Virus record (IMG/VR): IMGVR_UViG_3300047560_000422
Coordinates: 1-43,244 of that record
Strand: one strand, 5' to 3'
Source: a virus
Length of the DNA stretch: 43,244 nt
This document shows, piece by piece, positions 1-28,288 of the stretch (position 1 is its first letter; each line of letters opens with the position of its first letter). The notes under the pieces were generated by a model that was not told where the DNA came from, ran no database searches, and saw only the letters and a program-made list of their open reading frames with translations. The translations under genes were made by a program, and so were the position numbers.

Positions 1-1757
1 GTTATAGAACTGTTACTTCTATTACTAACAATACATTAATGGATGTGGATAGTCCTTTTGGTGCTACTACTACAGGTTTAACTCACCAAAAAGCTTGGAT
101 CATCGGTGATCCTATCAGCTTTGTTAATAATCCAAATCGTACTATCGTTGTCTCTGGAAACACCGCTACTTTCAATCTTAATGAAGCAGCTAATGCAGCG
201 TTTAATGTTCAGATAGCTTATACTATCGACAGATCAGATACTACTTCTATAAAGAAAGTGTTAAATGATACTGTTTATGTTAAGATCGACTGTTCAAATA
301 ACGTTTCTGGAGTAAAAGGACCTTACAGTCTCGGCGTTCCAGACGTTTATAAACTAGTAGGTGTATACGCCGATACTTCTGGCAGTAAGACTTATTCTAC
401 AGCAAATCCAGACTATAAGTCATACTTCACTCTTGATAACGGTCAGAGAGATACACACTATGGCTTAGCTAGATTGACAGCCAATGGTAATCAATTAGCT
501 GGAAGACTAAACACATCGACTACTCTTTTAGTCGAACTCGAAGCTTTCACTAGAGATACTTCGCAGGGTGTTGGCTTCTTTAATGCTAATTCATATCCTA
601 TTGATGACGTAAACACATCTAATACGAGCACTATTAGATCTTATGAGATCCCAACATATACTGGCTCAGACGGTATTTTCTATGATCTTAGAAACGTTAT
701 CGACTTCCGTCCTACTGTAGCCAATACAGCAGCTTATTCCAATACTATCGTATCAGCTACTATCAATCCTGGTTCATCTATATCGTTTGCAGCGAATCCA
801 TATCTTCCTGCTCCAGACAGTATCTTCACTACTGATCTTCAGTACTATCTAGCGCGTACTGATCGTATCGCTCTTGATACTACCGGCAGTATCATAGTTA
901 CCGAAGGCAATCCTGGCGTAGACAATCCACCTGCACCTCCAGAAAAGACAGGCACAATGTCTCTGGCGCTTGTAAAAGTTCCAGCTTATCCTTCGTTGAC
1001 TGTCAATGAAGCTAAAGCAAACGGACGTTATGATATAGCTATTCAGGCAGAGCCTCAACAGATCAAACGCTATACGATGAAAGACATCGGTAAGTTTGAT
1101 TCTCGTATTAAGACTCTTGAATACTATACATCTCTTTCTCTATTAGAATCTTCTGCAGCTGCTCTTCAGATTCGCAGTACTCAGACTGGTCAGACACGAT
1201 TCCAGAACGGTATCTTCGTTGATCCATTCAATGGCTTTGATCTCTGCAACACTCAACATCCTAAGTTCTACATCGCTGTAGATCAAAAGAGATCTGAGAT
1301 CAGACCTTCATTCTTCCAGTGGCGTAGCGATATGATATTCGACTCTGAAGGAAGTAGTAATGTTCAGAAGCATGGTGAGCTTGTTATGTTGTCTCACACT
1401 AGTGATACTCCATACATAACACAGTCTTATGCATCGAAGTATAGAAACTGTATCGAAGGCAACATCTATACTTGGAGAGGTACTATCAAGCTCACACCTG
1501 GTGGTTCTATGGCTCCAGATACAGTAAATAATCCAGACGTCGTCAATAACATCGATCTCGCTCAAAACTTCATTAACCTGCAACAGGCATGGGGCACTCA
1601 GTGGGGCAATTGGGAAACTATATCGACGACTTATGCTAACACGCTCATCACTGCGTCGTCGTCTTCTAGCCAGCACGTTGGTAGTGCACCAAGTACGTTA
1701 AATAATACTACAGTCTACAACGACACGACTACTAACTATCCATCTGGTGGTAGATAA
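1..1757 (+). CDS. Virion structural protein, DUF4815-like (5' partial)
   Basis: The reading frame is open from base 3, so the gene begins upstream of the window; the first in-window ATG (base 39) is internal. The visible part is about 585 residues. It contains segments I recall from the DUF4815-type virion protein of cyanophage-like T4 relatives: SDGIFYDLRNVIDFRP, the ARTDRIALDTTGSIIVTEGNPG-like region, and a KRYTMKDIGKFDSRIKTLEYYTSLSLLE-like helix. These proteins sit between baseplate wedge genes and gp13, so a role in the baseplate periphery or fibre attachment is likely, but the exact function is inferred. The C-terminus is Ser/Thr/Asn rich and ends 9 bases before the next ORF. In relatives I recall, the following two ORFs are part of the same polypeptide, so this may be the N-terminal third of a split protein. 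Confidence 0.75.
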   Translation, partial: YRTVTSITNNTLMDVDSPFGATTTGLTHQKAWIIGDPISFVNNPNRTIVVSGNTATFNLNEAANAAFNVQIAYTIDRSDTTSIKKVLNDTVYVKIDCSNNVSGVKGPYSLGVPDVYKLVGVYADTSGSKTYSTANPDYKSYFTLDNGQRDTHYGLARLTANGNQLAGRLNTSTTLLVELEAFTRDTSQGVGFFNANSYPIDDVNTSNTSTIRSYEIPTYTGSDGIFYDLRNVIDFRPTVANTAAYSNTIVSATINPGSSISFAANPYLPAPDSIFTTDLQYYLARTDRIALDTTGSIIVTEGNPGVDNPPAPPEKTGTMSLALVKVPAYPSLTVNEAKANGRYDIAIQAEPQQIKRYTMKDIGKFDSRIKTLEYYTSLSLLESSAAALQIRSTQTGQTRFQNGIFVDPFNGFDLCNTQHPKFYIAVDQKRSEIRPSFFQWRSDMIFDSEGSSNVQKHGELVMLSHTSDTPYITQSYASKYRNCIEGNIYTWRGTIKLTPGGSMAPDTVNNPDVVNNIDLAQNFINLQQAWGTQWGNWETISTTYANTLITASSSSSQHVGSAPSTLNNTTVYNDTTTNYPSGGR

Positions 1758-1766
1758 GAGGGTAAT

Positions 1767-3116
1767 ATGCCGGGTACTTTAAATACTAACGTAACTCAGA
1801 CTCTACAGACAACACAGTCGCTTCAACAACAAGTTGGCACTGTACTCAATAATACTTTGTCTGATGTTCAATATAATCTTGGTGGATTTATTCAGAACAT
1901 CAACTATATCCCGTTCATACCTACTGTTACTATCAAGTTTATGGCTAGAGGACTAAAGCCAAATACTCGTTTGTATGCATACTTCGGTGATGTGCCAGTG
2001 TCTGGATGGTGTGCACCTATTACTGACATTGAAAATTACAACACCGATAACATCGCAGATTCAAAACTTACGGACCCGTTTGGTACACCGCTGTATTCAG
2101 ACGAGTATGGAAATTGTAACGGAGTATTCAAGATTCCTCCAAACAAATTTCCGTCTCATCAAGAAACACAGTTTGTTCTGAACGATATCAGCGATCTTAC
2201 TGAAGGTATGGACGCTATCAAGACACAAGCAGACGGCGTATACTACGCCAGTGCTTTCTCTGTAGGTAGAGCAAACTCGCTTCTGAATACTCGTCAGACG
2301 GTTCTATCTTCATCTGAAGTAACACAAAATCAGATAGTAACTGGTCTTGCAGTTCAGACTGTGACTACTCAAGATTATGTTCCTGATCCTCCTCCTCGCT
2401 CTGGTGGTGGCGGCGGTTGCGGTTGTGGCTGCTTTACTGGTAATACGTTAGTAATGCTTGAATCTGGAAAAGAAATTCCTATCAAGGACATAAAGATCGG
2501 AGATAGAGTATTCAATTCAGATATGTCTCAGATCAATACAGTTAAGTACGTAGAAACTATAGACGGATCTAACTTCGAGTACTTCTATAGTCCTACTTCA
2601 GCTGAGCCGTTCGCTACTAGCAATCATCCTCTATACATGAATGGTAAGCTACACAGTGCAGATCCAGATCTAGTCAATAACTATCATCCTTGGTTTGGTA
2701 TGACTGAGAAGTTCGTGTCTTTCAAAGCAAAGAAAGCTACTTCTGAGACAGTCTACAATCTGTGGTGTGATGGTGATAACACTTATACAGTTAACGGTCT
2801 TGGAACTACTTCTATCATGAAAGATGGTGGTGTTCTAAGAGTATGGGCAGAAAAGAACATTCTTACTAATGAAGAATTGAATTCTATCATGATCAATTAT
2901 ATGGCTTCAGGTAAAGAAGCGATGTATGGAGCTTATATCTTGATAAACACTTTCGCTATGATCAAGAACGATAAGATCTTAAAGATTCTTGCCGATGCTG
3001 TATTAAATGAGAAGCTGGCAACCAAAAGAATAGCAAAGATGATAGGTAAAGTAGCGTGTATCATTAAATCTCCTTCTCTTGAGCTCAATAAATATATGAA
3101 ACAGGAGACAGTATAA
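1767..3116 (+). CDS. Virion protein with C-terminal Hint (hedgehog/intein) domain
   Basis: 449 residues, ATG start with a GAGGG ribosome site. Residues about 45-205 hold a structural segment (IPFIPTVTIKFMARGLKPNTRLYAYF, then YADATY-like text) that in relatives lies in the middle of the long DUF4815-type virion protein. A Pro-rich and Gly/Cys-rich linker (residues 205-221) leads to a Hint domain at about 222-352. Block A is CFTGNTLVML with Cys222 in the nucleophile position, followed by PIKDIKIGDRVFNSD. Block B is TSNHPLY, giving the TxxH motif with Thr284 and His287. Block F is VYNLWCDGDNTYTVNG at about 329-344. The His-Asn pair that ends a splicing intein is absent (TTS instead) and no endonuclease domain is present. 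About 95 further residues, Ile/Lys/Ala-rich and helical-looking, follow. Self-cleavage or transfer of the N-terminal part to a nucleophile, as in hedgehog proteins, is inferred. Confidence 0.8.
   Translation: MPGTLNTNVTQTLQTTQSLQQQVGTVLNNTLSDVQYNLGGFIQNINYIPFIPTVTIKFMARGLKPNTRLYAYFGDVPVSGWCAPITDIENYNTDNIADSKLTDPFGTPLYSDEYGNCNGVFKIPPNKFPSHQETQFVLNDISDLTEGMDAIKTQADGVYYASAFSVGRANSLLNTRQTVLSSSEVTQNQIVTGLAVQTVTTQDYVPDPPPRSGGGGGCGCGCFTGNTLVMLESGKEIPIKDIKIGDRVFNSDMSQINTVKYVETIDGSNFEYFYSPTSAEPFATSNHPLYMNGKLHSADPDLVNNYHPWFGMTEKFVSFKAKKATSETVYNLWCDGDNTYTVNGLGTTSIMKDGGVLRVWAEKNILTNEELNSIMINYMASGKEAMYGAYILINTFAMIKNDKILKILADAVLNEKLATKRIAKMIGKVACIIKSPSLELNKYMKQETV
3087..3094 (+). promoter_or_regulatory. 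Possible late promoter AATAAATA inside the end of the Hint gene
   Basis: The octamer AATAAATA lies 24 bases before the ATG of the next gene and matches the motif seen before other late genes in this window. It falls inside coding sequence (Asn-Lys-Tyr), so chance occurrence is possible. Confidence 0.35.
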
Positions 3117-3117
3117 T

Positions 3118-5565
3118 ATGAAGCCTATTGCACAGACTTTCTATGTCAATGAACCAGCTGCTGGTGTACCCGGTATCTTCATTACTAAAGTCGACATCTA
3201 CTTCAAATCAGTAAGTTCATCTTACGGCATAGAACTGCAGATTCGTACGACTGATAACGGAGCTCCAACATTGGAGAGACTTCCGTTCGCTTCTGCTATT
3301 AAGACACCATCTGATACGTATCCGCCTCTGGCAAGTGATAATGCTAGCTTAGCTACAACTTTTGAATTTGAGACTCCTGTATTTGTTGAATCCGGTAAGT
3401 CGTATGCTCTAGTTCTTCTTCCAGTAGGTGGTAATCCTGATTATAAAGTATGGACTGCTGAAATTGGTCAGAGAGACTCACTTTCAAACACTCCAATCTA
3501 TACTAACAACGATACTGGTGACTTATACTTATCTTCTAATGATAGGTCTTGGCTTCCAGTTATTACTGAAGATTGGAAGTTTACTATCTACAGAGCTAGC
3601 TTTACTGCCAACTCTGGTACAGCCATATTTCATTCGCCTGATGAAGAGTATCTCAAGCTTAGCGACATCGTAGGAACGCCATTTCCAGGTGAGCCAATTG
3701 TCGTTACAGATAATTCATATGACAACGCTTGGTTAGACATCACCGGCCTTTCTGGTTCAATTTCAACTGGTAACTACATCTATCAAACAGATGACGGTAC
3801 ACCTTCTGGAACTAATACGGCTGTAGGTATAGTATACAGCACTAATTCTTCTGTATTAAAAGTTACAAATACTACTGGCGTATTTGGTGCATGTACAGTG
3901 TACAATGCTAACGCTAGTGGTAATGCTGTAGTAACAGGCATCTATCAGAATGCTGTAACTGTAAGTAGCAACACTACTATCACAGTTCCGGATAGTTCTA
4001 TATTTGGTGTTGGTAATGTGATCTACGTAACTACTAGCGGCGGTACAAATGCTCAAGTAGTATCGATTACTGATATACCATATTCTAATCAGATAGTAGT
4101 CAATACAGCAATTGCTTTTAGCGACGGGTCTGCTATCTATGGAAAAGTCTTGTATAATGGTACTCTCACTGGTAGTATAAGCGAGTACATCACAGAACGT
4201 GATGGTTACACTTACATGATCATCGATATGTCTACTGCTACTACTGGAAACAACTTCACTGCAGCTGTAGGAAAGAAGATCATTGGCGAGTTCAGCGGCG
4301 CTACTGCAAAAATAGTAGAGCTTGGAAGTCCTCCATATAACCAGATCTCACCAAGCTTCGTTCATGTAACTCCAGCTAATACAGACATATCTTGGTCTAT
4401 CAAGGGTGTTGCCAACGACTCTATCTACACTCCGGATTCTACTTATCTTGCTGTTAGAGAGGGTATATCTAACGAGTTCATAGACAAGGAAAGAACTCTT
4501 CTTTCAAGAAGTAATGAGCTCGTCAATCTTCCTGTCGGAAGAAAGGGAGATCGTACTCTTAGAATTAAGGCAGACATGTCTGCTTCTAATAATAAGATCT
4601 CACCAAGTATCGACTTCTTGAGTAAGTTGACTCATTTCACATATAACTGGATCATTAAAGACGTAGATCTGTATGGTTTCTATACTTTCTTATCTAACAC
4701 TTCTGGAACTTTTGCAAACGGTGAAATAGTAACTCAAGGAAGTACTTCAGGTACAGTTTGTTTTGCTAATAGCACTTTCCTTCGTCTGGGCGGTGTTTCT
4801 GGTGGTACAGTATTTGCTGCTAATAGCACGCAAGTTACTGGTCTAACAAGCGGCGCTACAGCAACTATTGATAGTTCTACGTTCTATGGTGAGAACATCG
4901 ATAACGGTCCTGGTGAAGCTTCTCGTTACATCTCTAAGACTGTCATTCTTGCTTCTTCCCAGAACTCAGAAGACATGATCGCTTATCTCGGTGCTTATCG
5001 TCCTGATAAGACCAACCTGAGAGTCTATACAAAGATCATTAACGATGCTGATCCTGATTTGTTTGATACTAAGGATTGGTCGTTCCTCAGAGAGACTTCA
5101 CCTACGAGTCTTCTGTCTAGTTCAGTAAATGCTGACGATCAAGTAGAATTGGTTTACGGTTTCCCTCAGAGCATCAATCTATTCATCAGCAACACTTATT
5201 GCAATACTACTTCTAACAATGTGACTGTGTTCTCGACTGCAGGTCTGCAAGCTGGTCAGTACATCTACATGTCTAACGCTGATAACAAGCAGTTCAACGT
5301 AAGACAAGTCATATCGGTAGTCAACAGTTCAACTGTAACTGTAGATAAGACACCTTCTTTCGTAGCTAACTCATCTACAGGAAACACTGCGTTCGGTTAT
5401 ATTCCTGGTCTAGCTTCACCGACTGGTGCTTTCTTGAACGATCAGAACAGTAACATCGCATACGATACTTACTCACAGTTTGCTATCAAAATCGTACCGA
5501 CTGCTGAATCTAGAGCTCTAGTTCCTAGAGTTTCTGACATGAGAGTCTTGGCGGTACAGGCTTAA
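3118..5565 (+). CDS. Virion structural protein, C-terminal part of the DUF4815-type protein
   Basis: 815 residues, ATG start with an AGGAG site eight bases upstream. The N-terminus (KPIAQTFYVNEPAAGVPGIFITKVDIYFKS) corresponds to the 'DPLAQTF ... FLTKVDLYF' region that in cyanophage-like relatives follows directly on the segment carried by the preceding ORF; it starts abruptly with this motif and no leader. The middle part (about residues 200-450 and 520-600) is a series of Gly/Ser/Thr beta-rich repeats. Near residues 610-815 come SRYISKTVILASSQNSEDMIAYLGAYRP-like text and a conserved-looking end, YDTYSQFAIKIVPTAESRALVPRVSDMRVLAVQA. It is likely a peripheral baseplate or fibre-attachment protein. 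The gap to the Hint ORF is a single base, so translation is almost certainly coupled. Confidence 0.7.
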   Translation: MKPIAQTFYVNEPAAGVPGIFITKVDIYFKSVSSSYGIELQIRTTDNGAPTLERLPFASAIKTPSDTYPPLASDNASLATTFEFETPVFVESGKSYALVLLPVGGNPDYKVWTAEIGQRDSLSNTPIYTNNDTGDLYLSSNDRSWLPVITEDWKFTIYRASFTANSGTAIFHSPDEEYLKLSDIVGTPFPGEPIVVTDNSYDNAWLDITGLSGSISTGNYIYQTDDGTPSGTNTAVGIVYSTNSSVLKVTNTTGVFGACTVYNANASGNAVVTGIYQNAVTVSSNTTITVPDSSIFGVGNVIYVTTSGGTNAQVVSITDIPYSNQIVVNTAIAFSDGSAIYGKVLYNGTLTGSISEYITERDGYTYMIIDMSTATTGNNFTAAVGKKIIGEFSGATAKIVELGSPPYNQISPSFVHVTPANTDISWSIKGVANDSIYTPDSTYLAVREGISNEFIDKERTLLSRSNELVNLPVGRKGDRTLRIKADMSASNNKISPSIDFLSKLTHFTYNWIIKDVDLYGFYTFLSNTSGTFANGEIVTQGSTSGTVCFANSTFLRLGGVSGGTVFAANSTQVTGLTSGATATIDSSTFYGENIDNGPGEASRYISKTVILASSQNSEDMIAYLGAYRPDKTNLRVYTKIINDADPDLFDTKDWSFLRETSPTSLLSSSVNADDQVELVYGFPQSINLFISNTYCNTTSNNVTVFSTAGLQAGQYIYMSNADNKQFNVRQVISVVNSSTVTVDKTPSFVANSSTGNTAFGYIPGLASPTGAFLNDQNSNIAYDTYSQFAIKIVPTAESRALVPRVSDMRVLAVQA

Positions 5566-6520: not shown

Positions 6521-6836
6521 GGCTAACATCAATATAGATCAGGGCACAGACTTCAGTACTGAAATCGATCTGTCAGATGAAGCCGGAAATCCTTTAAGTT
6601 TAGACCAGTATAGCGGTAAAGCACAAATACGCAGGTGGTATACTTCTGCAAATGCTGTGGATTTTGGTGTGCAGCTCGAGACTGGTAAGATATATTTGAC
6701 CATGAACTCTGCAACTACGAGTTCTTTAGATAAAGAACGCTACGTATATGATGTGATCTTAATCGATCAACATGATGTCGTGACCAGAGTCGTTGAAGGC
6801 TTAGTTCAAGTCAATCCAAGAGTGACAGAACCATGA
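6510..6836 (+). CDS. Conserved small virion-associated protein
   Basis: 108 residues, beginning KANINIDQGTDFSTEIDLSDEAGNPLSL. This 'IDQGTDF ... G..L.L..Y..KAQIR' pattern is a conserved small protein in cyanophage-type T4 relatives, usually beside fibre genes. Its function is not known to me; the predicted all-beta, Ig-like size suggests a structural adaptor. The ATG lies 11 bases inside the preceding gene, and the stop overlaps the next start (ATGA), so translation of the three genes is coupled. Confidence 0.65.
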   Translation: MATKANINIDQGTDFSTEIDLSDEAGNPLSLDQYSGKAQIRRWYTSANAVDFGVQLETGKIYLTMNSATTSSLDKERYVYDVILIDQHDVVTRVVEGLVQVNPRVTEP

Positions 6837-7084
6837 GCATCAATGCGATTATTAAGAAGACTACTAGTATCGTAGCCAACACGACTGCGATAACTAGAAC
6901 GCAGTCGCAACCGGCAATAGAATTGAAAAACAATGTTCCATCTATAAGTCAAAACTATCTTCATAATCTTCTAGATGTAAAAGCAGATGATCCAGCTGAT
7001 GGCTATACGCTGGTCTATAATGCTAATACGAGAACATATGATGTTAGCAGCTTTGCTAAAGATATAGACGGTGGAAGCTTCTAA
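6833..7084 (+). CDS. Small protein with the IDGGSF C-terminus
   Basis: 83 residues. The centre, NYLHNLLDVKADDPADGYTLVYNANTRTYDV, resembles the 'LDDV..DN..DG.VLVYN..T..YE' element found in phage fibre shafts. The last residues, IDGGSF, are identical to the end of the +1-frame segment that ends at 9064, suggesting a shared terminal motif. The gene starts by a four-base ATGA overlap. The function is unknown, probably a minor fibre or adaptor protein. Confidence 0.6.
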   Translation: MSINAIIKKTTSIVANTTAITRTQSQPAIELKNNVPSISQNYLHNLLDVKADDPADGYTLVYNANTRTYDVSSFAKDIDGGSF

Positions 7085-9338: not shown

Positions 9339-12300
9339 ATGGCTAACAATAAGATTCGTATCAAGAGGACGTCTGTCACTGGGCGTACTCCGAACACTAC
9401 CAATTCTGGAAACTCCCAGTACATAGATGCTGGTGAGTTAGCCCTCAATCTCACAGACAAAAAGCTATTTTCATCTAATGGATCGACTTACTTCGAAGTA
9501 GGTAGCAACGTATCTACGCTCGCAGTCAATGCTATTTCAGCTAATGGTACGATTGGTACTGCTGGTCAAGTACTCACATCTAACGGATCAGTAGTCTATT
9601 GGGATACTCTTTCTAGTGGAGGTATCACTGTAAGAAGTACTGCAGGTAACGGTGGTACTGTCAACACTACTGTTACTAACGTTACTGCTATTAACTTCGA
9701 CACGGTCACTGGCTTCAATGTAACGGATCAAGGTTCCGGTAACGTATTCGTAAGTCTTGGTTCTGGTTTTAAGACTATCGAAGTAGCTGGTCAGACTAGT
9801 ATCACTGCAGTAGGTGAAGATACTCTAGTCATTGCTAATGGCAGCAATATTACTCTTACGACATCAAATGCTGCTCCTAAGACTCTTACTATCGCTCTAT
9901 CAGCAAACGTAGTAACTAATACTCAGTTGAGTAGTAATCTTGCTAACTATCAGACTACTGCAGGATTATCAGCTAACGTAGCTACTCTTACTGCGAACAA
10001 CACGAGCTATGTAGGTAGCGTATCTGCTGCCAACGTCGTATCCAACGCACAATTATCTGCAAACTTAGCTAACTATCAGACTACTGCTGGATTGGCAGCG
10101 AATGTAGCAACTTTAGCTGCAAACTCTGCAACATATCTTGGTTCTGCAAACAATTTTGGTAATTCTACTGGAATCTATACTACCACTGCAGTTGCTGTGG
10201 GTAATTCTACAGCATATTCGAATGTTACGGTCGGTAGAGTTTTAATAACGAATGGAACTTATACTTCCAGCGTTAATACGAGTTATTTAAAGTTAAACGC
10301 CAATACAGATGCTACTTTAAGTAACGGCGTTGTCATAAGCGGTAACTTCCTTCAAAATGAAGGAAGCGTATCTCAGACAGCTATCGGCGCCGCTATAGCT
10401 CTTGGAACTCCTGGTTGGAATGGTCCTGGTGGATCTGATCACTATGCACCACAAGGTGGTATCTATGAAGTAGGAGCCAATCTATTTTTCGTAAACACTT
10501 CACTCATGCAAATGGGTAATAGTGTTTCTTACTTCAACTTGACTCCAACATCATTTACTATGGGTAACACTGTAGTAAACACATCTACTATAACAGTGAA
10601 GTCTATAAACGCTAATGGTGGAATAGGTTCTTCTGGACAAGTACTGACTGCAAATGGAACAGGAATCTATTGGTCGACTCCAGCATTCTCTGTCAACGTA
10701 GATGCACAGTATACTTGGACAAACACACAGACTTTTAGTAATACTATTACGTTCTCGCAGACGATCAACGGTACTGCTAACAACTCTCTTTATCTTGGTG
10801 GTACTGCAGCTGCTGGTTATCAGACTACTGCTGGTCTATCTGCAAACGTTGCAACACTTACAGCTAACAATACGAGCTATGTAGGCAGTGTGTCTGCTGC
10901 TAATGTCGTATCTAATGCTCAGTTATCAAGTAATCTTGCTAACTATCAGACTACTGCTGGATTGGCAGCGAATGTCGCAATACTAACAGCTAATAATGCC
11001 AACAATCTTGGTGGCGTTGCAGCAGCATCTTATGTCAATACTTCTGGTACATATACCATATCTGGCGTACACACATATAGCGCAAACATTCATATTAACA
11101 ACGATAAAAAGTTAAAATTCCAAACCGTTAACACTTCTGTATATGCTGCTTTTTCTCAGCAATCAGACGACAACTTCGTTTTTTATACATCTAATACAAC
11201 GTATGGCTCTCGTCCCGTTTGGGCAATATATGCCAACAGTGATAGCAGTAATCTTTCTATATTAGTACCGACAGTTTTTAATACTACTGCATATGTGGGA
11301 GCTGTTAGTGCAAACGGCTCTCTTGGTTCTGCTGGTCAATTACTTACTTCAAATGGTAGCGCAACTTATTGGTCATCTCCTGGAGCTGTATCTGTAAACA
11401 CAGCGGCACAATATACTTGGACTAATACACAAACATTTTCTTCTAATATTACTTTTAGCGGTAACGGAATTACTTTTACCACAAATACGGGCGCCGTTTA
11501 CTTCAATGGTCTTAGCGATAGTAATTGGAAAATTGGTAGAAATACCGGTGGATTAACTAAATCTTACTATACTGGTAACACACTTGACATTATTGCATAT
11601 TCATCATCTGGTTCGCTTGAAGGTATAGCTCTTGGTCAAACGGGTGCAAACGTTTGGTTTGAAACTGGTTACAATGGTTCATATACAAAGAATCCAATTT
11701 ATGTCGGTAACTCGTCTGTAAACGTATCGATAAATTCTACATCTTTTACTGGTACTGCCAATAATACTTCTTATGTCGGCACAGTCAGCGCCGCTAACGT
11801 AGTATCCAACGCGCAGCTCACTTCTAACTTAGCAAATTACCAGACTACGGCTGGATTGTCAGCTAACGTAGCTACTTTGACAGCCAACAACACATCATTT
11901 GTTGGTTCTGTATCAGCAGCTAACGTAGTTTCAAATTCTCAATTATCTGCTAATTTGGCTAATTACCAGACTACAGCTGGATTGTCAGCTAATGTAGCTA
12001 CTCTTACAGCTAATAATACTTCTTATGTCGGCACAGTAAGTGCAGCTAACGTGGTTTCAAATGCACAGCTGTCTGGTAACTTAGCTAACTATGTTACTAC
12101 TACAAATCTAACAAATAACTTAGCAAATTACCAGACTACAGCTGGATTGTCAGCTAACGTAGCTACACTTACGGCAAATAATACAAGTTTTGTTGGTTCT
12201 GTCTCTGCGGCCAATGTCGTATCGAATGCACAACTCACTGCTAACTTGGCTAATTACCAAACTACTGCTGGTCTATCTGCAAACGTTGCAACACTTACAG

Positions 12301-13280
12301 CTAACAATACTTCCTTTGTTGGCAGCGTATCTGCTGCTAACGTCGTATCTAATGCACAACTTACTTCAAACTTAGCTAACTACCAGACTACTGCTGGATT
12401 GGCAGCTAACGTAGCTATACTCACTGCAAACAATGCTAATAATCTTGGCGGCGTTGCTGCAGCATCTTATGTGAACACTTCTGGATCGTATACGATAACT
12501 GGTGTACATACATATAACGCTAATATAGTAGTCGGTACTACTGCGGGTATATCTGCAAACGGCGGTTATGGTACTAGTGGACAGGTATTGACTTCTAATG
12601 GAACTACTGTATATTGGTCAACTGCATCTAGTGGTGGTTTTTCGAATGGACAATCGATATCCGTAAATAATTTCGTTATTACTGGTGCTTTTACAGCAAA
12701 TGGCGCAAACGGCTCTAGCGGTCAAGTATTAACTACCAACGGTTCAGCGACATATTGGTCGACACCGAGTAGTGGAAGTACTACTTTCCAAGCAGTTCAG
12801 CAGCAGTATACTGGAGACGGTACGACTACTACATTTTCTGTAAGTGGTGGATATGTAGCTAACAACTTGAATGTATATCTCAACGGTGTTATGCTTCGTA
12901 AGGGTACTGAAGTTACTGTAACCAGCGGTTCTACTTTTACGGTAACTACAGCTCCGCCAAGCGGTTCTTTGATAGATGCTATAGGTGTTTCTGCATTATT
13001 GGCTAATGGCATTAATACTATAGTGTCTCAACAGTTTACAGCCAACGGAACAGCAAATTCGTTTACTGTATCTGGTGGTTACATGCCTAATCAGATTCTC
13101 GTATTCTTGAACGGCGTTAAACAGATTCCTGGTACAGACGTTACTATCACGTCTGGTAACACGGTTAATTTTGCAGTGACTCCTGCAAATACATACGTAG
13201 TCGACGTTTACGGTTATCAATCTTCGGCCACTGTAATATTACCAGATATTCTCAATCCATTCTTACTAATGGGAGCATAA
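9339..13280 (+). CDS. Giant repetitive tail-fibre protein
   Basis: 1313 residues, with ATG after GAGGGAG. The N-terminal anchor ANNKIRIKRTSVTGRTPN ... DAGELALNLTDKKLFSSNG parallels the gene at 7120. Five GQVLTSNGxxxYW-type shaft units occur, several followed by TAAQYTWTNTQTF. Three blocks of a 42-residue tandem repeat (LSANLANYQTTAGLSANVAT plus ANNTSYVGSVSAANVVSNAQ) lie at DNA positions about 9918-10118, 10816-10988 and 11757-12425. The last about 175 residues hold two copies of a TFQAVQQQYTGDGTTTTFSVSGG-like beta unit (QQFTANGTANSFTVSGGYMPNQ is the second), ending ILNPFLLMGA. It is probably the longest fibre of the virion. The receptor-binding end may be supplied by the genes that follow. 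Confidence 0.75.
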   Translation: MANNKIRIKRTSVTGRTPNTTNSGNSQYIDAGELALNLTDKKLFSSNGSTYFEVGSNVSTLAVNAISANGTIGTAGQVLTSNGSVVYWDTLSSGGITVRSTAGNGGTVNTTVTNVTAINFDTVTGFNVTDQGSGNVFVSLGSGFKTIEVAGQTSITAVGEDTLVIANGSNITLTTSNAAPKTLTIALSANVVTNTQLSSNLANYQTTAGLSANVATLTANNTSYVGSVSAANVVSNAQLSANLANYQTTAGLAANVATLAANSATYLGSANNFGNSTGIYTTTAVAVGNSTAYSNVTVGRVLITNGTYTSSVNTSYLKLNANTDATLSNGVVISGNFLQNEGSVSQTAIGAAIALGTPGWNGPGGSDHYAPQGGIYEVGANLFFVNTSLMQMGNSVSYFNLTPTSFTMGNTVVNTSTITVKSINANGGIGSSGQVLTANGTGIYWSTPAFSVNVDAQYTWTNTQTFSNTITFSQTINGTANNSLYLGGTAAAGYQTTAGLSANVATLTANNTSYVGSVSAANVVSNAQLSSNLANYQTTAGLAANVAILTANNANNLGGVAAASYVNTSGTYTISGVHTYSANIHINNDKKLKFQTVNTSVYAAFSQQSDDNFVFYTSNTTYGSRPVWAIYANSDSSNLSILVPTVFNTTAYVGAVSANGSLGSAGQLLTSNGSATYWSSPGAVSVNTAAQYTWTNTQTFSSNITFSGNGITFTTNTGAVYFNGLSDSNWKIGRNTGGLTKSYYTGNTLDIIAYSSSGSLEGIALGQTGANVWFETGYNGSYTKNPIYVGNSSVNVSINSTSFTGTANNTSYVGTVSAANVVSNAQLTSNLANYQTTAGLSANVATLTANNTSFVGSVSAANVVSNSQLSANLANYQTTAGLSANVATLTANNTSYVGTVSAANVVSNAQLSGNLANYVTTTNLTNNLANYQTTAGLSANVATLTANNTSFVGSVSAANVVSNAQLTANLANYQTTAGLSANVATLTANNTSFVGSVSAANVVSNAQLTSNLANYQTTAGLAANVAILTANNANNLGGVAAASYVNTSGSYTITGVHTYNANIVVGTTAGISANGGYGTSGQVLTSNGTTVYWSTASSGGFSNGQSISVNNFVITGAFTANGANGSSGQVLTTNGSATYWSTPSSGSTTFQAVQQQYTGDGTTTTFSVSGGYVANNLNVYLNGVMLRKGTEVTVTSGSTFTVTTAPPSGSLIDAIGVSALLANGINTIVSQQFTANGTANSFTVSGGYMPNQILVFLNGVKQIPGTDVTITSGNTVNFAVTPANTYVVDVYGYQSSATVILPDILNPFLLMGA
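9918..10118 (+). repeat. 42-residue fibre repeat, first block
   Basis: About one and a half copies of the 126-base unit (the unit boundary GCG-AAC-AAC at 9993 and the equivalent codon at 10119 are exactly 126 bases apart). The unit carries LANYQTTAGL and VSAANVVSNAQ. Confidence 0.7.
10816..10988 (+). repeat. 42-residue fibre repeat, second block
   Basis: The unit boundaries at 10863 and 10989 are 126 bases apart. The block is followed by ANNANNLGGVAAASYVNTSG, which also follows the third block. Confidence 0.7.
11757..12425 (+). repeat. 42-residue fibre repeat, third block (five units)
   Basis: The unit boundary codons fall at 11757, 11883, 12009, 12174, 12300 and 12426. Spacing is 126, 126, 165, 126 and 126 bases. 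The one long unit contains a 13-residue duplication (LANYVTTTNLTNN). The DNA copies differ mainly at third codon positions. Confidence 0.85.
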
Positions 13281-27445: not shown

Positions 27446-28288
27446 ATGTCAACATTACAAGTAACGGCTATCACGGGTATCAATACTTTTTCAGCTACGG
27501 CATCCGTGATCGTGGGCAACTCTACGACGAACGCTGTATTAACTAATACATCTTTTACTATAGCCAATTCTTCATCGAACGTAGTCATTAATCCTACTAA
27601 CGTCAATATAGGAACTGCGTTCGTAGCTAATACTACCGGTGCATATCATACTGGCACAATGAACGCCGCTTCGTATACAGTTGGTTCTTCTTTGATTGCC
27701 AATACTACCGGTGCATATCATACTGGTACCATGAATGCTGCTTCATATACAGTTGGTTCGTCATTCATAGCCAATACTACTGGTGCATATCATACTGGTA
27801 CAGTCAATGCAGCATCACATACTGTAGGCACAGTTTTTGTTGCTAACACTACTGCTGCTAATATAGCTGCAAATACTCAAGTAATATCTCTTGGTGTTGG
27901 TACTCCTGCATCTGGAACTACTGGTGAAATTCGTGCTACTAATGAAGTCACCGCTTACTACTCAGACGCAAGACTTAAAGATGATGTGAAGAACATCGAA
28001 GACGCTCTCATAAAAGTGCAGAATCTCAACGGTGTAAGTTATGTGGAGAGCGCTCTAGCTAAGCAATTTGGTTACGACAATGAAAAAAGACAAGTCGGCG
28101 TTATAGCTCAAGAAGTTCAAGCAGTACTTCCAGAAGCCATTCGTCCTGCACCGTTCGACGTAGATGCAGATGGTAACTCTAAGTCTGGTGAAAACTATTT
28201 AACTGTCAAGTACGAAAACCTTATTCCTCTTCTCATAGAAGCAATCAAACAGCTGAGTGCTCGTGTAGAAGAGCTAGAAAGAAAGTAA
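27446..28288 (+). CDS. Tail fibre with C-terminal S74 intramolecular chaperone
   Basis: 280 residues. The N-terminus STLQVTAITGINTFSATASV is the anchor type shared with two other genes here. Residues 62-133 are three tandem 24-residue repeats (NTTGAYHTGTMNAASYTVGS). The C-terminal S74 domain starts at about residue 165: YYSDARLKDDVKNIEDAL, VGVIAQEVQAVLPEAI, LTVKYENLIPLLIEAIKQL and a final coiled coil SARVEELERK. Ser173 and Lys178 sit in the SDxRxK motif that forms the known Ser-Lys dyad; cleavage just before Ser173 releases the chaperone after the trimer folds. The mature fibre would be about 172 residues, so very short. Self-cleavage is known for the family and inferred here. Confidence 0.85.
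   Translation: MSTLQVTAITGINTFSATASVIVGNSTTNAVLTNTSFTIANSSSNVVINPTNVNIGTAFVANTTGAYHTGTMNAASYTVGSSLIANTTGAYHTGTMNAASYTVGSSFIANTTGAYHTGTVNAASHTVGTVFVANTTAANIAANTQVISLGVGTPASGTTGEIRATNEVTAYYSDARLKDDVKNIEDALIKVQNLNGVSYVESALAKQFGYDNEKRQVGVIAQEVQAVLPEAIRPAPFDVDADGNSKSGENYLTVKYENLIPLLIEAIKQLSARVEELERK
27629..27844 (+). repeat. Three 72-base tandem repeats in the S74 fibre
   Basis: Units start at 27629, 27701 and 27773, each exactly 24 codons. The first two encode almost identical residues with differences mostly at third codon positions; the third has diverged more at its end. Confidence 0.9.

Follow-up and report, generated by a model that had tools for sequence, protein, structure and literature searches.

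The described proteins closest to the domain analyzed here are BIL2 of Tetrahymena BUBL1 (6y75/6tmm) and the BIL domain of Clostridium thermocellum (2lwy), which gave the best fold and profile matches and share with it Cys1, the TxxH motif, and block F. In both of these proteins, as at our locus, a Hint domain lies between or after other domains and contains no homing endonuclease. BIL domains without a +1 nucleophile mostly undergo cleavage (PMC7664689), and BIL-B types, which have no C-terminal motif, are cleaved at their N-end (PMC7765530). We analyzed a Hint domain encoded at 2430..2822 (+ strand) of a 43,244-nucleotide stretch of viral DNA (IMG/VR record IMGVR_UViG_3300047560_000422; hereafter, the window), which belongs to a T4-type myovirus with tail sheath, portal, and head protease. 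The domain occupies residues 222 to 349 of a 449-amino-acid protein (open reading frame [ORF] 1767-3116), where it follows a 'GLKPNTRLYAYF' domain and precedes a six-helix tail. We propose, with a probability of roughly 0.6, that it cleaves itself at its N-terminal side in a BIL- or hedgehog-like manner, removing Hint and tail from a virion protein, and that C-terminal cleavage has been lost since the genes are separate.

Cys222 (codon 2430-2432) opens the domain, Thr284 and His287 lie within FATSNHP, and block F reads VYNLWCDGDNTYTVNG, followed by GTTSI where the terminal His-Asn pair (HN) of an intein is expected. With the window fragment alone, Pfam returned Hint (E=1.7e-6) and Vint (E=1.3e-5), slightly below the curated cut-offs, and PT-HINT (pretoxin HINT) was among the weak matches; PF13403 alone had no match on the window. 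We fetched 58 family members, 28 of which formed the family alignment used for profile and model. All 28 matched Hint at E<0.1 (best, 4.6e-7), 25 of 28 matched Vint, and the best Hom_end_hint match among them was 2.7e-9. Searched against the PDB, the family profile matched PI-SceI (4e-5) and BIL 2lwy (2.5e-4, spanning blocks A, B, and F), as well as BIL2 6tmm, Vint 8r2c, and hedgehog. An AlphaFold model of Hint plus tail from the 28 sequences (mean predicted local distance difference test [pLDDT] 90.1; predicted template modeling score [pTM] 0.84) consists of a beta-rich domain (11-138) followed by six helices (144-237; model numbering), and Foldseek matched this model to BIL2 (7e-8), Vint (1.7e-7), inteins (from 3e-5), and hedgehog (8e-4 to 2e-3), in addition to Hint-domain proteins of uncultured phages. 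Because family profile, model, and fold search agree on BIL2, Vint, and inteins, the match is not due to chance. The initial annotation, made from the sequence alone, had recognized Cys222, Thr284/His287, and block F as a Hint core with neither a terminal His-Asn nor an endonuclease; all of this is borne out (the core is ~125 amino acids, without endonuclease insertion) and now extends to a family. Its span for the domain, 2430-2825, had the correct start; its end fell short of the six-helix tail (about 2830-3113), which is conserved.

The blocks A/B/F fold, the position-1 Cys, and the block B TxxH place the domain in the Hint superfamily. It differs from an intein in having no C-terminal His-Asn with a +1 Cys, Ser, or Thr and no homing endonuclease, and in not lying within a continuous ORF; the His-Asn pair is missing from all 28 aligned HN-less members. 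BIL type A is defined by a terminal HN without +1 nucleophile, and in the window this HN is missing. The motif pattern fits the published definition of BIL type B, for which the cleavage is here a prediction from motifs. It is best classified not as an intein but as a new BIL- or Hog-like Hint subfamily on phage virion proteins that lacks HN and bears a tail.

This HN-less domain is a previously unnamed family of uncultivated phages. A single-sequence search of viral contigs returned no relative of the Hint domain; relatives of Hint plus tail in these contigs were found by alignment-guided scans. Cultured phage records contained no Hint plus tail, and a scan of a genome collection gave a single relative, on a contig of a metagenome-assembled genome from Erysipelotrichaceae that is probably viral. 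Cys1 and Phe2 are invariant in 57 of 57 aligned domains, and the Thr and His of TxxH in 58 of 58. Ser occupies the intein Asn position in 55 of 58, and the His is kept (GTHS) in nine. Mean column identity in the family alignment is 47%, and members are ~32-47% identical to the window domain. If the Hint were an inactive remnant or a purely structural fold at the chain end, this would agree with the loss of the C-terminal motif and with single-sequence Pfam scores under the curated cut-offs; at such identities, however, a dead domain would drift at Cys1, Thr, and His, all invariant here, and we regard this explanation as very doubtful. Given the invariant catalytic residues and the Ser in 55 of 58 domains, the alignment is best read as pointing to an N-terminal reaction at Cys222. 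To this extent the hedgehog-like reaction put forward in the initial annotation stands, and its suggestion of crosslinking is conceivable. In a tree of 143 columns built by a quick method, a single branch separates the HN-less from the HN type (SH-aLRT support, 98), so the HN-less form most likely had a single origin and then spread.

The Hint-bearing gene encodes one part of a larger protein. According to profile matches, the phrog_358/DUF4815 virion-associated protein, ~2000 amino acids in relatives, is divided in the window among three consecutive ORFs (ORF39, ORF1767, and ORF3118), with the Hint at the second break. The first piece, the DUF4815 body (39..1757, + strand), matches phrog_358 positions 666-1173 (E=1.6e-102) and DUF4815 (2.5e-16); it is truncated by the contig end, its frame being open upstream (bases 3-38). 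The 'GLKPNTRLYAYF' domain of the second piece (residues 1-208; 1767..2390, + strand) aligns over residues 10-208 with phrog_358 1164-1423 (E=1.5e-16) and matches 282 phage records by tblastn. The third piece begins MKPIAQTF (3118..5565, + strand), aligns over residues 3-813 with phrog_358 1423-2054 (E=1e-66), and has a plausible ribosome-binding site, AGGAG, at 3103..3107 (+ strand). Across the Hint break, the profile resumes in ORF3118 without a lost position (1423/1423), and the protein is continuous in the cultured Rhizobium phage RHph_I1_18, Stenotrophomonas phage Moby, Variovorax phage V45v66, and Vibrio phage K471, as it is in most viral-contig relatives. The Hint thus lies exactly at the split, between segments contiguous in relatives, as the initial annotation had stated. 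That position would also suit a Hint that ligates its own chain in trans to the one starting MKPIAQTF and so rebuilds the protein that is continuous in relatives. Such joining is hardly credible, because the downstream chain begins M-K, lacking both a Cys, Ser, or Thr nucleophile and a C-intein piece; in relatives, the ORFs downstream of this site begin M-(A)KPI or similarly and have no such nucleophile either; and the Hint core is complete through block F in one chain with HN gone.

We mapped domain order in 73 distinct Hint ORFs with profiles for D1 (DUF4815 body), D2 (PNTR domain), and D3 (PIAQ domain); loci carry L numbers, the window being L085. HN-less Hints occur in the order D1-D2-Hint followed by D3 at 11 loci including the window, D1-D2-Hint followed by D2/D3 at eight, D1-Hint followed by D2/D3 at seven (plus L109), and D1-Hint followed by D3 at three. 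The DUF4815 protein thus has at least three breakpoints that they occupy, and ~30 split-type loci have an HN-less last Hint. HN-less Hints are also found on fibre-like and other structural proteins, and in L120/L121 and L157 (and neighbours) the N-terminal part of a gp5-like baseplate hub protein is followed directly by Hint plus tail. In T4, gp5 is itself known to be cut. Of 59 matched domains, 58 end at most 23 residues from the ORF end; the exception, in L193, is an HN-type domain internal to an unsplit protein.

Unsplit proteins with Hints show the opposite state of the C-terminal motif. L188, L191, L192, L193, and L195 encode a continuous protein of 2161-3022 amino acids (L195 is cut by the contig end) with two to four tandem Hints between D2 and D3, each with HN. 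HN is thus kept in five of five unsplit D1-D2-Hint-D3 proteins: it is retained inside unsplit genes and lost at split ones. The last Hint of these arrays ends ..HN-K/R-DP(L/V)(A/S)QTF, which aligns with the MKPIAQTF start of the downstream gene in the window. K/R follows HN in five of five unsplit Hint-bearing proteins, and K/R precedes DPxxQ in 6 of 48 Hint-free unsplit relatives, a comparison that rules out plain inheritance of host sequence as the source of K/R. Lys as an obligatory nucleophile after HN is disfavoured, since Arg (L188, L195) and Gln (L046) are also found. In L190, the fourth array Hint is broken at 6822-6852 by a frame change, real or an assembly error, and D3 goes on in another frame.

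Tandem arrays reach seven Hints in L145 (1150-6663), five in L138 (1-6666), at least four in L109 (1-2358), three each in L098, L100, and L105, and two in L169. Array Hints of relatives carry HN, and the next residue is K/R in almost every case; after the HN of internal ones comes Lys, often the sole residue before the next Cys1. The last Hint of each of these seven arrays is HN-less and has the helical tail. By eye, the last Hint of L145 has an array-like start and a window-type continuation, which suggests recombination between the two types.

In the window, the tail (2823..3113, + strand) is an orphan: a PHROG search gave no match, and a PDB fold search with a tail-only model (pLDDT 74) gave none either. 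A six-helix tail of conserved length and pattern is attached to every HN-less Hint, and it may chaperone, dock, or activate the reaction, or act like an adduct-recognition region. This last role would fit acyl transfer of the hedgehog or BIL2 kind, in which the tail would position a nucleophile (for example, a small molecule or a Lys in an adjacent virion protein) to accept the chain from the Cys222 thioester, giving a crosslinked or capped C-terminus. An HN-less Hint with a C-terminal adduct-recognition-like domain resembles Hog (PMC2362128), the nearest fold, BIL2 of Tetrahymena, makes Lys isopeptide bonds (PMC8616854), and no HN-less Hint is without the conserved tail. The acceptor, however, is a postulate, BIL2 retains its Asn, and searches detected no relation of the tail to any adduct-binding domain; we consider acyl transfer unlikely. 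A broader scheme is quite improbable: HN poly-Hint arrays of uncultivated phages (up to seven, Lys-joined), together with a terminal HN-less Hint whose tail positions the adduct, would use thioester chemistry, without a protease, both to cut virion proteins and to crosslink them covalently. The weak PT-HINT match and the virion nature of the host proteins might alternatively recall polymorphic toxins, with the Hint freeing the tail as a virion-delivered effector; pretoxin tails vary among relatives, though, whereas this tail is conserved, no toxin match was found, and without HN the tail stays on the Hint, all of which makes such release extremely unlikely.

Other C-terminal modules occupy the same site in relatives. 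L006 and L007, which have 55-60% identity to the window in the domain preceding the junction, carry a helical module (IICT) without Hint, and L008 carries a self-cleaving Peptidase_S74 chaperone (4300-4737). The IICT module (IICTxLYxLGLM..; 9583-10068 in L006, and also in L007, L010, L013, and L084) often follows a Gly-rich linker and had no Pfam or PHROG match where tested; hhalign did not support homology between the tail and the module of these five loci, the IICT profile being thin (effective number of sequences, Neff, ~2). In the window itself, a tail-fibre ORF at 27446-28288 ends in an S74-type chaperone motif (SDARLKDDV). These modules, like the helical tail and the HN-bearing arrays, were not part of the initial annotation. 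The Gly/Cys linker SGGGGGCGCG before Cys222 (2400..2429, + strand), to which the initial annotation assigned the new C-terminus, has counterparts in relatives with and without Hint. It is a reasonable candidate for that end, provided that the thioester is hydrolysed, but it is no evidence for cleavage because GCGCG also occurs in the close, Hint-free relatives L006 and L007.

For the self-cleavage that we favor, the predicted steps are as follows. Cys222, aided by Thr284 and His287, would form a thioester with Gly221, which hydrolysis or attack by another small nucleophile would then resolve; this would leave the virion chain ending ..GGGGGCGCG, and the Hint-tail piece would depart. Without HN, the C-terminal side (the tail) would remain attached to the Hint, and the Asn cyclisation half of the intein reaction would be lost because the downstream chain MKPIAQTF.. 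has its own gene. At the same junction of unsplit relatives, HN Hints would cut the polyprotein on both sides. Since HN is needed to free the C-terminal side, it would persist in genes with a downstream chain to release and disappear from those that are already split. The self-cleaving Peptidase_S74 at this site in L008 and the HN-less Hints on gp5-like hubs support self-cleavage. Fold, invariant residues, position, family distribution, and HN pattern were computed directly, and from them we infer cleavage, hydrolysis as its resolution, and a role in virion maturation. Several points weigh against this interpretation: the cleavage is a computational prediction; the invariant residues would also suit acyl transfer in which the nucleophile is not water; L030 and L046 have the split yet keep HN at the very end; L006 and L007 are split yet Hint-free, so that in general the protein can do without the Hint; and the HN-less type is one clade with one change on the tree, which makes the correlation between splitting and HN loss one Hint-side event, even though several host proteins and several breakpoints are concerned.

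Maturation of virion proteins usually depends on a phage protease or on self-cleavage of the S74/Ser type. Our results suggest that some phages use self-cleavage in place of a protease, and a widespread Hint family confined to the ends of phage structural proteins would, if this is true, represent another maturation chemistry. The gradation from polyproteins that contain HN Hints to split genes that end in an HN-less Hint would show gene fission taking over from self-cleavage, and the tandem arrays raise the question of what role several thioester-forming domains have in a row. Elsewhere in the window, a repetitive 1313-amino-acid protein (9339-13280; repeats such as TANNTSYVGSVSAANVVSNAQL) had no PHROG match.

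In the open-access literature, to which our search was confined, we came across no description of tandem Hints or of a phage tail protein with a Hint domain. The large terminase subunit inteins of phages (phiCbK, Maynard) are also Hint domains in phage proteins (PMC3556154, PMC3868846), but they splice, have C-terminal motifs, and lie inside enzymes, whereas the window Hint lies at the C-terminal end of a structural protein and is incapable of splicing. Peptidase_S74 intramolecular chaperones are likewise self-cleaving C-terminal modules, of fibres, although their fold and chemistry are unrelated. Vint (8r2c), the third-best fold match (1.7e-7), also has no splicing motif at its C-end; it occurs in eukaryotic VWA proteins, where no helical tail of this kind is known. 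The hedgehog Hog domain (1at0), a weak match by sequence (0.12) and fold (1.9e-3), shares with the window a chemistry limited to the N-terminal thioester (predicted for the window), a Gly-Cys junction, and an extra C-terminal domain after the Hint; as far as tested, the window tail is unrelated to the sterol-recognition region. Unlike BIL2 and 2lwy, the window Hint has lost HN (GTTSI), is followed by a six-helix tail, and is carried by a phage virion protein.
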